NCBI RefSeq assembly: GCF_041146795.1
Contig: NC_135179.1
Location: 29,293,047 to 29,357,046, forward strand
Source: Maylandia zebra
Taxonomy: Eukaryota > Chordata > Actinopteri > Cichliformes > Cichlidae
Reading direction: 5' to 3'
DNA length: 64,000 nt
The notes below the pieces were generated by a model. The model searched no databases. It worked only from the letters and a program-made list of their open reading frames with translations, and had not been told where the DNA came from. The position numbers and the translations under genes were made by a program. This document shows, piece after piece, positions 23,501 to 29,500 of this stretch (position 1 is the first letter of the stretch; each line of letters starts with the position of its first letter).

Positions 23501-26500
23501 ATGTATTATTGTATGGTACAATAATACATACAGAGAACCCAACAATCATATGACCCCCTATGAGCAAGCACTTTGGCGACAGTGGGGAGGAAAAACTCCC
23601 TTTTAAAAGGAAGAAACCTCCAGCAGAACCAGGCTCAGGGAGGGGCGGCCATCTGCTGCGACCGGTTGGGGTGAGAGAAGGAAGACATTTGTTGTAGGTC
23701 TGATCGAAGGACTGATGTGATGGTAAGTTGACTGCTGCTCCGCTTTGAATATTGAGAGATTAGTGAATAGATTTTAAGCCCAATTGTGCCTAAGTTTAAG
23801 ACCATATTCATTGGTTGTTTTTGTTGTTGTTATTACTTTGGGCTTTTGTTCACAAGAATTGCTAGCTTCCCTAGAGTTTTGGACACCCAGACAATCAGAT
23901 GATTGCTGAGAAAGCACAAGGTTTTTATACCCCTGTGCTATTCATGTTGGTGCAGGATAGTCTCCTAGAGAGGCCAGGGTTGAAAAAAGGGATGCTTCAG
24001 AACCTCTGAGGGTGTTATGCGCTGATTTGCATCCAAGGCCAACATCTGTTTGATTAGCCTGACAAGTAATTGTTGGCCATTTTCAGGTCCTCGCCTAACC
24101 TTCATTAGTTTTTCGAGGTCATCGAGACACTTAAGTTTTATATATCGAGTTTCCTTGGATTGATAATCTGTCTCGTATTGAAATTGTTCTTTGGTCTTAA
24201 ATGTCCAGCGCTGTTCGTTGTAGTTATCTTCGATGAAATACCAATCAGTGTAGAAGCCAGAATCTAGGAGATGATCTGGTAGCTGACCCTGGGTTTCAGT
24301 TATGAATCTCAAAACATCATAATTGTCTTCCCCAGGATAGAGAGGCACCCCTGTAGCAAGCTCCACAGCTACCAGCCCCAGAGCCCACATGTCAATTGCT
24401 TCATCACATGGAATGCCAAGCATAACCTCGGGTGCACAATAACCAACCGTCCCCAGACTGTGACCAGGAATCAGTGCAGAAGCGGGACGTGCGAGGCCAA
24501 AGTCTATAACTTTGACTTTGACGGGAGACTCATGGCGATTCACAACCATTATGTTTCCAGATTTGAGGTCAGCATGCACTATTCCCACAGAACCCAGGTG
24601 GAACAGAGCATTTGCGAGCTGATGCAAAATGGGACTGAGTTCTCTTATTGGGAGACCCTGGTTTTTCCGGTCCCCTATGTAGTCCCACAGGCTTTGGTCG
24701 AGGAGTTCGAAATTTAAACAAATACGCTCTCCATCAAGGAAATAGCCGTTCCATTCAACAATGTTGCACCTGTCTGGATCCAAGCGTTGCAGCTGCTCCA
24801 GGATGAAAATTTCCAGTTTTGCCTGTTGCTGAATTTTAGGGTTACCCTTGTTGACTTTGATAGCCACAGTTTGGTTGTTTTTTGTATTGCGACATTTGGT
24901 CACAACACCAAAGCCTCCTTCCCCAAGGAAAGCCTCTACCACGTGGTGATCTCCCAAAATGGTCCCTTCAGGTATTTCAAGATCACCTTCTGAGGAAGAT
25001 GATATTTCAGAATCACCTTCAGAGGAAGATGATATTTCAGAATCATCTTCAGAGGAAGATGGGTTTGCTGAGGTGTTGACGTGTCCTTTTTGCTGAAATT
25101 CAACTGAGATTTGGAAACTGCAGTTGAATTTTTGCGATCCATGACTTTCCCAGTTTGAAGGCTGCTGAGAGAGCACAAGGTTTTCTCCCCCTGTGCTATT
25201 CATGTCAGTGCAGGGGGCTCTCCCTGAGAGGCCAGTGTTGAAAAAGGGATGCTTCAGAACCTCTGAGGGTGTTATGCGCTGATTTGCATCCAAGGCCAAC
25301 ATCTGTTTGATTAGCCTGACAAGTAATTGTTGGCCATTTTCAGGTCCTTGCCTAACCTTCATTAGTTTTTCGAGGTCATCGAGACACTTAAGCTTTATAT
25401 ATCGAGTTTCCTTGGATTGATAATCTGTCTCGTATTGAAATTGTTCTTTGGTCTTAAATGTCCAGCGCTGTTCGTTGTAGTTATCTTCGATGAAATACCA
25501 ATCAGTGTAGAAGCCAGAATCTAGGAGATGATCTGGTAGCTGACCCTGGGTTTCAGTTATGAATCTCAAAACATCATAATTGTCTTCCCCAGGATAGAGA
25601 GGCACCCCTGTAGCAAGCTCCACAGCTACCAGCCCCAGAGCCCACATGTCAATTGCTTCATCACATGGAATGCCAAGCATAACCTCGGGTGCACAATAAC
25701 CAACCGTCCCCAGACGGTGACCAGGAATCAGTGCAGAAGCGGGATGTGCGAGGCCAAAGTCTATAACTTTGACTTTGACGGGAGACTCATGGCGATTCAC
25801 AACCATTATGTTTCCAGATTTGAGGTCAGCATGCACTATTCCCACAGAACCCAGGTGGAACAGAGCATTTGCGAGCTGATGCAAAATGGGACTGAGTTCT
25901 CTTATTGGGAGACCTTGGTTATTCCGGTCCCCTATGTAGTCCCACAGGCTTTGGTCGAGGAGTTCGAAATTTAAGCAAATACGCTCTCCATCGAGGAAAT
26001 AGCCGTTCCATTCAACAATGTTGCACCTGTCTGGATCCAAGCGTCGCAGCTGCTCCAGGATGAAAATTTCCAGTTTTGCCTGTTGCTGAATTTTAGGGTT
26101 ACCCTTGTTGACTTTGATAGCCACAGTTTGGTTGTTTTTTGTATTGCGACATTTGGTCACAACACCAAAGCCTCCTTCCCCAAGGAAAGCCTCTACCACG
26201 TGGTGATCTCCCAAAATGGTCCCTTCAGGTATTTCAAGATCACCTTCTGAGGAAGATGAGGAAGATGATATTTCAGAATCACCTTCACAGGAAGATGATA
26301 TTTCAGAATCATCTTCAGAGGAAGATGATATTTCAGAGGAAGATGGGTTTGCTGAGGTGTTGACATGTTCTTTTTGTGGAAAGTCAACTGAGTTTTGGAA
26401 ACTGCAGTTGAATTTTTCTGATCCACGACTTATTTCAAGCTCATCTGAGCCAAAGGATGGGTTGGCTGACATGGTGTAACGTGTCTGCTTGTTTTGTGAA

Positions 26501-29500
26501 TTGGTGAGAAACAAAACTGAACTTGGTTTGGTTTCTGTCATAAAATGCTCTCAAAACTTCTCGAAAGGGTTTTTGTTGCTGTCAGGTCAATGTCCGTTAA
26601 GCGATAAAGTACAATAGGTGGGCGCTCCTATTTATGTGTTTTGGGATCAAAGCAAAGTTGCCACGTCAGAAAGGATCAAAGCAAAGTTGCCGCATCACAA
26701 GGAATCAAAGCGTTCTAATATATGCGCGCATGCGCACACACGTGGTTGTTTGTGTAATGTTGTTCACACTAAGAATTTTAAAAGGAAACTGACAGTTACA
26801 AAACTTTTTTTTCGTTTATTTGTATTTGTTTTGTTGTTGTTGTTTTTTCTGCATACCATGTCCAGCTTTTCTGTATAAAGTAATGAAGAATCTTGGATTT
26901 GGTGCTTAAAACTTCGTGAAACTGTAACCGTATTTCATTCACCATAAATCACTATCTGATTTTGAATAGTTTTCTTATCAGATACAGAAGTCTAAAACCA
27001 ACATTTCTCTGCCTGGGCTGCCTTGTAGCTCTGCACGTTGTCTCTTCAATGTGTGACCCCCTCCCTCCCCGAACAGTCGGGGGTGAGTGCACTAACGTGT
27101 CCGGTGTTGCCGTTTTAATGAGTGTTTGCTGGAAAACGAAAAATACAAGGAGTCTGCAAGATGGATTTGTACGTTTTCACAATGGGGGAGTTTGCGTAAG
27201 TGCTAGTAAATAATTTTCTCGAGTGTGTACGTTACACATGCTAATTTTGGAATTGTTTTTATTATTTTGCTAGCTAGCAAACTCCGGGATAAATGATTGA
27301 AATGTACTCAGTGTGATGCAATACGGTGCCGCTATTATAACAGTTAGTTATTGCAGGGTAATTTATGTAATATGCTGTGAATTTAACCAAGACTACACAG
27401 CAGTAGCAGTATTGCGAGTTACTTCCCCAAAGTGAACGCTTTAAACGTTAGCCCGATGCTTAACTAGCCAACTTAAGGCTTTCTGATTAAAGGCTAAAAG
27501 CGGCGTTGTCACCGAATAAATAGAATATTGATTATATTTTTGTGTATTGCTGCAGTTTTTTCAAGTATTAACTTGGTGCTTTTGGCAACCTTACGGGGAA
27601 ATAATGGTAATATGGCTGATCCATATGGACACAAAGAATATAGACTTTTTTATGCTACCGAAGTTCCCTCGCTTTCATTCAAAATCTGTTTATCGTTAAA
27701 CAACTTAAACATAATTGCCTCAAACTCACATTAAGGCCTGTGGGACACTATCAGCCACTGAAACAGTAGACAAATGAATATTTCATACCTTAAGGCTGCC
27801 TGTTTGTTTAAGGGAGATGAACAATACATTATAATTGTATATAATAATATCACAGATGATAGATTTAATAGGTTTTTGAAAGATGCTTGTGCATTCAAGT
27901 CTTATATGTTGAATTGAACCGAGTATGTCAACTGTTCAAAGCTTCTCCCAGTCAGTGCTGTTCTATGTGCCTGTCTTACTGTACATGATGTTATTAGCAC
28001 AAACACTTTAAAGGTGATAATTTAGGACTTCAGCAACACAGACTGCAATGTAGTTAAGCATCTTACAGTTAGTTTTGAATGAATGAAAAAAGACAAGCAA
28101 ACATCTGTCTCCTATTCTTTTGTGTCACTTAAGAAAGAAGCATAAATATCTGATGAGAAGACTTATTAATTTGGCCTTTCTCATGATCTGACTGAGGTGA
28201 TGCGAAGTGAAATAGTCATCCTTTTTTGGTAATGTGCTGGAAAAGCTTGAAGATGGAGATTGATAGTGCTTACAAATTGCTTGAATGTCACCCTGAAAAA
28301 GGTGTATGAAGTAAAATCTGATTTTGATGCGTTCAGCACAAAATTTAGTCACACAGTCAGGACAACATCTGATTTACCTTCATTGGGAAACATGTTTAAA
28401 GCAGGAGTTCAGTACATATTTTGTTTTTTGTACATATTTTTATAGATCTTTATGTTTATTAACTTTTTTTATTGTATTCTTATGTTTTTTTTAATTCTAT
28501 ATATTTTATACATGTGTTACATTTACATTTTCATGTAGCTTTTTAAAAAAACATTTTTTTTGTATTTTGGTATCTTTACCTGTCTCATAAATTCAGGGCT
28601 ACATCCTTTCTATAGACAAAGAGCTTATCTTGGAGCCTTCAGCTTCTTCTTTAGTACTTTCATAGGTGGATGTAGGAAGTAACAATAATATGTGATGATA
28701 ATCTGTGATACATGAAATAATCTTATATTAATAGTAATAATGGATCTGTTCCTGTCAGGAAAATGCTTGTGCAGAGGTTTCATTGTCCTTATTACCACCA
28801 CAGCTCTGCCTCGCAGTGACAGTTTAGTTGCAGTTTCGAGGCTCATTTGTGTACCAGCATAAAGACTTTCCTCGCAGTGAGCTGTGATCTCAACTACTGA
28901 GCTGATGCATGCTATAGTTACAGCTGGATATTTTTTTTCTCTTTCGTAAAGTGTTTTCATTAAACAGACTCATTCATTATTAATTGTTTTACATATTTTG
29001 TCTTTTACGTAAACAAAACACTGCTAGAATTAAAGTACTAGAAACAATTAAAATACACTGTAATTAGTACTTTTAACAATTTGATAGATGCCTTTTATTA
29101 TATTTTTAACATCAGCATGTTGAAGGACTTGTTTAGAAGAGAGTGCTAATTTATATGCTAAAATATGTTTTTCTTTTTGGCCAAGTTAGTGAAAACACTT
29201 TATTATCCTCTAATAGATTTTTTTAAATGCTTGGTGATCATAGTACCCAAAACTAGCTGCATCAGGTAGTACTTCTGAGAGGATCAGAAGTCCCAGGTAT
29301 ACTGGTATTGGGTGTTGCAGCTGTAGGGATGACTCTTTCTGAAGCCTCAAGCTGACTGTTTCCTCTCAGATGTAAAAGGCTGATGATTTACAAAACAGAC
29401 ACTGCGTCGTTCAAATAGATGAGGCTCATCATAAAATAAGAGATACTTTACTCTCTGAGCATTGTTTCTAGTGTCCATTCATCCATTTAGTTTACTCTGG

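Follow-up and report, generated by a model that had tools for sequence, protein, structure and literature searches.

Do two almost identical kinases in one open reading frame record a duplication that has only just happened, or an old fusion whose halves have been kept alike? The question is raised by a gene in a stretch of 64,000 nucleotides of the Maylandia zebra genome (NCBI RefSeq assembly GCF_041146795.1, contig NC_135179.1, positions 29,293,047 to 29,357,046 of the forward strand), the whole of which is called the window here. The window lies on contig 13 (C13), contains no N and was compared with the genome it comes from (962 Mb, 63 contigs); contigs are labelled C, loci L and the kinase domains of a gene D1, D2 and D3 in order, all from this genome. 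On its minus strand, an uninterrupted frame of 858 codons from ATG to TAG (Table 1) had been read in an earlier note, from the sequence alone, as an intronless gene for two HIPK-like kinases, duplicated in frame and nearly identical owing either to a very recent duplication or to ongoing gene conversion. Our analysis makes it probable that the gene belongs to a large and old family of single-exon genes with two HIPK-like domains, which go back to one ancestral fusion and were later homogenised within each gene.

The two-kinase frame and its family

The basic description of the gene was borne out. Pfam PF00069 matches the frame twice, all Pfam matches above cut-off being kinase-like or covering the kinase domains, and the closest solved structures are HIPK2 (6p5s; E 4.8e-72 and 2e-70) and HIPK3 (1.6e-69), followed by DYRK1A (8e-39). 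No intron lies inside the frame. The proposed spacing of 419 codons agrees with the 1257 nt found in a repeat comparison of the window, and the catalytic motifs reported for both units stand at residues 140 and 559 (VAIK), 237 and 656 (HADLK), 261 and 680 (DFG), and 278 and 697 (GTVGYCAPE) of kinases 1 and 2, respectively. What had been given as about five residue differences amounts to five non-synonymous changes, alongside five synonymous ones, over 333 aligned codons (10 of 999 positions). The protein terminates directly behind the second kinase, and one extra T shifts the C-terminal tail of the second unit relative to the first. Of 13 aligned rows, only two (the window and L013) have the first ATG of the frame. 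The true start is probably codon 24, at position 26472, giving a protein of 835 aa, because this ATG is conserved in 11 of the 13 rows and stands in a Kozak-like CACCATG context; L021 differs there, and L039, whose row held no useful sequence and whose start codon the script missed, does carry the Met in translation. An AlphaFold model of the single 835-aa protein was too poor to be used (mean predicted local distance difference test score, pLDDT, 37; predicted template modelling score, pTM, 0.22).

The gene has many relatives. A genome search with the window protein, in which 53 of 374 candidates were scored, returned at least two consecutive kinase matches at all 53 loci (three on C14), with 12 loci on C3, 11 each on C25 and C12, eight each on C22 and C4, and one each on C13, C14 and C15. 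A search with the inter-kinase linker alone, with all 101 candidates scored, gave 65 matches at E <= 5.5e-5; these represent 63 loci, since a locus at C14:9.79 Mb has two linkers and the window contains a partial second copy (match C13:29319378, query 20-52). The 63 loci are distributed over 12 contigs (C1, C3, C4, C10, C12, C13, C14, C15, C17, C20, C22 and C25), and kinase matches flank the linker on both sides in 54 of them. An open frame of at least 733 aa is present in 52 of the 63, according to the open-frame values of the search tool together with direct reading; 28 loci were read directly, 26 of them open and two (L011, L019) interrupted. L020 is open at 733 aa, yet the N-lobe of its first kinase is disrupted. 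Ten linker loci lie beyond the original 53, and six of them were examined: C12:7994515 encodes a 793-aa double, and the five fetched as L040-L043 and L047 are fragments or interrupted copies. Of the first unit of L040 no more than the final residues are left, the sequence fetched for L047 does not include its second unit, and L041 (C14:34239000-34242000) is a tandem copy interrupted by sequence that we take to resemble a Harbinger-type nuclease frame. Because the layout recurs in the same genome, the tandem arrangement in the window is neither chance nor a simple local assembly artefact. A covalent kinase pair would follow if the frame is translated.

Age of the fusion and likeness of the kinases

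In an alignment of 9 of the 27 extracted linkers, the linker can be followed across five lineages (the window; C3/C22/C25; C4/C12; C15; C14) with a single 3-residue gap, the acidic repeats of the window apart. Its identity between lineages, with the join included, is 42-83% in protein (10 of 10 pairs) and 73-91% in nucleotides (the 9 of 10 pairs with a blastn match); the window copy has a longer Ser/Glu/Asp-rich end than the other lineages. The linker begins like the tail behind kinase 2 and ends like the N-terminal region that precedes kinase 1, except that the start codon has been lost, as expected for a head-to-tail fusion of a whole unit. Since the join is common to all five lineages, a single ancestral fusion is the simplest reading, and linker homology indicates that the tandem fusion predates the split of these lineages in the genome. 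Synonymous divergence (dS) in 11 domain pairs across lineages was 0.31-0.43 in seven and 0.15-0.20 in four. The very recent, isolated duplication considered in the earlier note was rejected in view of the recurring architecture and of the linker found in five lineages and at 63 loci; what stands of that interpretation is two domains in one intronless frame and an exchange between the units.

The kinases themselves do not follow the positional homology of the linker. In a codon tree of 54 domains they group by lineage, and a topology constraining 13 domains to cluster by position was rejected (log-likelihood difference, deltaL, 882; approximately unbiased (AU) test, p 1.2e-8). The tree and the motif counts given below leave out L020_D1 and contain neither the interrupted second unit of L011 nor the interrupted first unit of L019, which were not extracted; the domain that survives in L019 was relabelled D2. 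Inside the C3/C22/C25 and C4/C12 groups, the D1s and the D2s of different genes form separate groups, and homogenisation there therefore predates the spread of those copies. D1 and D2 of the window are separated by a dS of 0.022 and those of the other genes compared by 0.004-0.141, whereas values between lineages span 0.15-0.43. Because the linker is shared and yet the kinases do not group by position, the pattern points to an old tandem whose kinases were homogenised separately.

Of the doubles compared, the window gene is the most homogenised (99%). Its units differ at 9 of 975 positions in the kinase (0.9%), against 9 of 86 in the half-linker before it (Fisher p 3e-6) and 17 of 95 in the tail after it (p 5e-13), a divergence of 10-18% in the flanks that supports the gene conversion raised in the earlier note. 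So sharp a change of identity at the kinase edges is what a conversion tract would leave, and because the repeat flanks of the same units have diverged to this extent, the 99% identity is, on this comparison, secondary.

Kinase number varies as well. On C14, the 1155-codon frame of L021 encodes three kinases; linker plus kinase is repeated in it, the linkers are identical and D2 and D3 are 98.3% alike. Four single-kinase frames (392-405 codons; L036-L039) join a D1-type start to a D2-type tail. At 31 diagnostic positions, defined on 17 genes for D2 and 16 for D1 (L010_D1 being short; L011, L019 and L020 excluded), L038 has 24 D1-type followed by 7 D2-type sites and is a clean D1/D2 chimera; L036 and L037 are D1-type at all 31, the switch therefore lying beyond the last site; and L039, compared with L022, is mixed and nearer D1 (20 vs 46 differences). 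Both the single-kinase genes and the triple appear to have arisen by intragenic unequal crossing over. The second, later-half copy of the linker ahead of kinase 1 in the window was seen in none of the ten other loci compared; it could be the remnant of a triple that has lost its first kinase, or the result of duplicating linker plus kinase once more. The 30-nt coding repeats of the Ser/acidic stretches differ in copy number before each kinase and may be polymorphic, and we presume that these stretches resemble CK2-type target sites.

HIPK ancestry, selection and rival explanations

Vertebrate HIPKs combine a single kinase domain, interrupted by introns in the gene, with homeodomain-interacting and C-terminal regulatory regions. 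The tandem family departs from them in having two or three domains and a frame without intron. Its domains are 40-44% identical to HIPK2, and the window kinases have the HADLK catalytic loop in common with HIPK1-HIPK4 (DYRK family, CMGC group) and align with HIPK2 also in the region behind the catalytic core. The contrast with HIPKs that the earlier note had seen in the intronless state is real: a canonical HIPK2-like exon on C7 of the same genome stops inside the activation loop at a GT donor, a position across which the tandem family is open. Because that exon is split where the family has no intron, retrocopying or intron loss at the origin of the family is likely, and the retro-derived origin suggested before gains support as a possibility. 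The tandem domains form one group against HIPK2 and the single-kinase genes of C8 and C11 (support 100). On C8 (C8:7334747-7346019), three single-kinase HIPK-like genes with identical scores lie 5137 bp apart, and the copy read (L045, the first) has an activation-loop tyrosine (SYIQTRPYRSPE), and its frame runs uninterrupted through the canonical intron site. The other single-kinase HIPK-like group, at C11:6418226, 6425200, 2701602 and 2623074, is 40-41% identical to HIPK2 and has a different activation loop; the copies read (L046, L048) are open across that site too.

The later spread of the family was, to judge from its flanks, by DNA copying, because C3 and C25 copies share several kilobases that include them. 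In a comparison of L009-L020 and L023-L028, shared DNA extends to as much as 9.2 kb among C3 copies (98-99% identity) and, in several copies, to about 6-8 kb between C3 and C25 (96-98%); because so much DNA is shared at that identity, copying between C3 and C25, or else a misplacement of scaffold C25, is apparently recent. Most aligned copies retain a TATA-like element and adjoining blocks just 5' of the start. The C3, C22 and C25 copies in the alignment have CATAAATA or a similar sequence, whereas the element is weaker in C15 and C4/C12 and out of register in C14. No convincing terminal repeats were seen at the edges of the shared block, the best being imperfect matches of 20-21 nt (in L009 inverted repeats only were sought), and a simple transposon with terminal repeats was rejected on that ground.

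When copies are compared with one another, both domains show signs of purifying selection. The ratio of non-synonymous to synonymous substitution rates (dN/dS) is 0.10-0.55 in 15 pairs, and each of the seven pairs tested falls significantly below 1 (p < 0.01). For L013 (C3) against L023 (C25) the ratio is below 1 in D1 (p 5e-4) and in D2 (p 2e-3), as it is for L022 against L029 (p 6e-6 and 2e-3). All 54 domains in the count have VA(I/V)K or IAIK, HADLK and DFG intact, and the glycine loop reads GEG(G/S)FG in 53 and EEGGFG in one. In alignment with HIPK2, none of the 54 has the HIPK/DYRK activation-loop tyrosine of STYLQSRYYRAPE or a motif of the SR.YRAPE type; they read GT(V/I/T)GY.APE. DYRK-family kinases are described as depending on cis-autophosphorylation of this tyrosine (PMC12738607). 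Given that reliance and the loss of the residue, the tandem family is probably activated without the usual tyrosine autophosphorylation, and because of the same loss the label HIPK needs a qualifier when applied to these sequences.

The history that we consider probable would begin with a HIPK-type kinase that lost its introns, probably by retrocopying, and was duplicated head to tail and in frame, once, before the family spread, a conserved linker of about 70 residues joining the kinases. DNA-level duplication would have taken the family to many chromosomes, its own upstream promoter carried along, and intragenic conversion and unequal crossing over would have homogenised the kinases separately in each lineage and, by the same exchange, altered their number to three or back to one. 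The protein may be made and work as a two-headed Ser/Thr kinase, whose two active sites per chain could confer higher avidity or allow one unit to phosphorylate the other. A broader and rather doubtful proposal is that such genes form a class of multi-headed fish kinases, in which one to three alike active sites per chain evolve via unequal crossing over and are kept uniform by conversion, in a large family of fast turnover with non-tyrosine activation and possibly a part in innate defence. Plant tandem kinases have such a defence role, and a similar action is suggested as a possibility for the fish family.

Part of the evidence weighs against one fusion with later homogenisation, and some of it would suit independent in-frame duplications in each lineage, at least five of them, from a long-tailed single-kinase ancestor, for which no conversion would be needed. 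The domains group by gene, single-kinase genes exist, the highest within-gene dS (0.135-0.141) comes near the lowest between-lineage value (0.152), the linker pair L009-L029 has a blastp match and no blastn match, and the sequence behind D2 is a degenerate linker homologue, so a single-kinase ancestor could have had such a tail and been duplicated repeatedly at the same join. We nevertheless regard this course of events as unlikely: the join is at the same place in all five lineages, its length differing only by the 3-aa gap and the window repeats; kinase matches lie on both sides of the linker at most loci; L036-L038, with the one clean chimera among them, resemble contractions, not ancestors, in their D1-type starts combined with D2-type tails; and in the window the kinases have diverged far less than the repeat flanks. 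A repeat-like multicopy family in decay, made up of dead copies or mobile-element passengers without protein function, seems to us about as improbable. High copy number, the broken or partial copies L011, L019, L020, L040, L041, L042, L043 and L047, and the C3/C25 DNA that is about 96-98% identical, flanks included, on different contigs would all fit decay. In some comparisons within genes, constraint goes undetected, with D1-D2 dN/dS of 0.98 in L021 (p 0.86) and 0.83 in L022 (p 0.57) and a D2-D3 value of 4.7 in L021 (16 non-synonymous vs 1 synonymous, not significant, p 0.14); the comparison of the two window units proposed in the earlier note was run on its 5 vs 5 differences and gave p 0.057, not p < 0.05. 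Against decay stand the between-copy dN/dS values, the intact motifs of every domain counted, frames that remain open across divergent lineages, and the block edges without convincing terminal repeats.

It is very improbable that the near-identity, or the tandem itself, is an assembly error. A 1.1-kb repeat at 99% identity is error-prone for assemblers and one assembly was used, but the linker is found at 63 loci on 12 contigs, and the window units differ in their N- and C-terminal flanks, in repeat counts and by a tenth or more beside the kinases. We find it equally hard to believe that two adjacent single-kinase genes are translated separately and share a read-through frame by chance; each unit does have a complete kinase, yet the linker of open copies contains no stop, has lost the equivalent of the ATG and is conserved at the protein level, and the triple gene repeats it together with a kinase. 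One ancestral fusion followed by intragenic homogenisation remains the reading that we prefer.

Tandem kinases elsewhere and surroundings of the gene

To our knowledge, kinases with two domains per chain are rare in vertebrates, and the known ones usually pair unlike domains. JAK and RSK have two kinase domains on one chain, and known tandem pairs are usually divergent, often a kinase plus a pseudokinase. Plant resistance proteins (WTK/TKP) and obscurin and SPEG are likewise described with two kinase domains per chain. The tandem family differs from all of these pairs in that both domains are alike and both look catalytically intact. Polyubiquitin is a case of intragenic concerted evolution of repeats in a coding frame and resembles the family in having units that are alike within a gene and variable in number, whereas the unit here is an enzyme domain of about 330 residues plus linker. 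Among the open-licence literature matches listed, titles and abstract openings contain no description of tandem HIPK domains; within that scope, we rate tandem kinases as known as a kind (plants, obscurin/SPEG) and the like-domain HIPK tandem as a new variant. HIPK expansions have been reported in flatfish (PMC8618825) and anglerfish (PMC7729161) genomes, and a Hipk1 gene is among the families unique to marine medaka in one comparison (PMC7493909). The likeness to our case is that HIPK-named genes are multiplied or lineage-specific; the available passages of these three sources give counts, lists and expression only and mention no tandem domains. Such expansions may include genes that are not ordinary HIPKs, and functional claims drawn from HIPK names may be misplaced. 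With more than 50 genes, like domains, a conserved linker and versions with one, two and three kinases, the family would offer a natural series on the doubling of active sites and a clear example of units within one coding exon evolving in concert.

Table 1. Coordinates, in window positions, of the tandem kinase gene, its parts and its candidate control elements.
Feature	Position	Strand	Basis or remark
Whole frame, two kinase domains, 858 aa	23965..26541	-	ATG..TAG; conserved start probably 26472 (835 aa)
Kinase domain 1, residues 105-434	25240..26229	-	Pfam and motif positions
Kinase domain 2, residues 524-853	23983..24972	-	Pfam and motif positions
Inter-kinase linker, residues 435-523	24973..25239	-	First ~70 aa homologous in five lineages, one 3-aa gap
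Second copy of later linker half, Ser/acidic repeats, between N-terminus and kinase 1	26230..26424	-	Sequence comparison
Ser/acidic stretch ahead of kinase 2, encoded by 3.0 tandem copies of a 30-nt repeat	24973..25061	-	Repeat scan
Ser/acidic stretch ahead of kinase 1, encoded by 2.6 tandem copies of a 30-nt repeat	26259..26337	-	Repeat scan
TATA-like CATAAATA, candidate core promoter	26629..26636	-	Alignment; function predicted
CRE-like (cAMP response element) TGACGTGG; TGACGTCA in aligned C3/C25 copies	26661..26668	-	Alignment
First AATAAA 3' of stop (+508 nt), candidate polyadenylation signal	23454..23459	-	Sequence scan
Outer limits of DNA shared with C3/C25 copies, gene and flanks	22938..28398	-	~70-92% identity in pieces

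The name CRE-like in Table 1 is one that we presume to fit the site. A stretch of the candidate 3' untranslated region, at about 23443-23639 on the minus strand, presumably is like a retroelement tail common among teleosts, with AATAAAATTGAATTGAA at its end. Scanning the window with Rfam and for tRNA genes gave no matches, and an NCBIfam scan returned 22 bacterial or archaeal models, every one below its cut-off. Carriage by viruses was rejected, as an IMG/VR scan with the second kinase unit gave 13 pattern matches and none was confirmed. Around the gene, the plus strand of the window has what we take to be PEX13-like coding sequence near 10.5-12 kb and SANBR/KIAA1841-like sequence at 16.5 kb, and the minus strand presumably carries XPO1-like exons from about 42.8 to 60 kb. 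Within this XPO1-like region, two long plus-strand frames at 48180-49760 appear to us to be like a long interspersed nuclear element (LINE) reverse transcriptase and its C-terminal part. Elsewhere in the window, a 328-codon frame at 17880-18863 on the minus strand looks, on the same presumption, like the end of a LINE-type reverse transcriptase.

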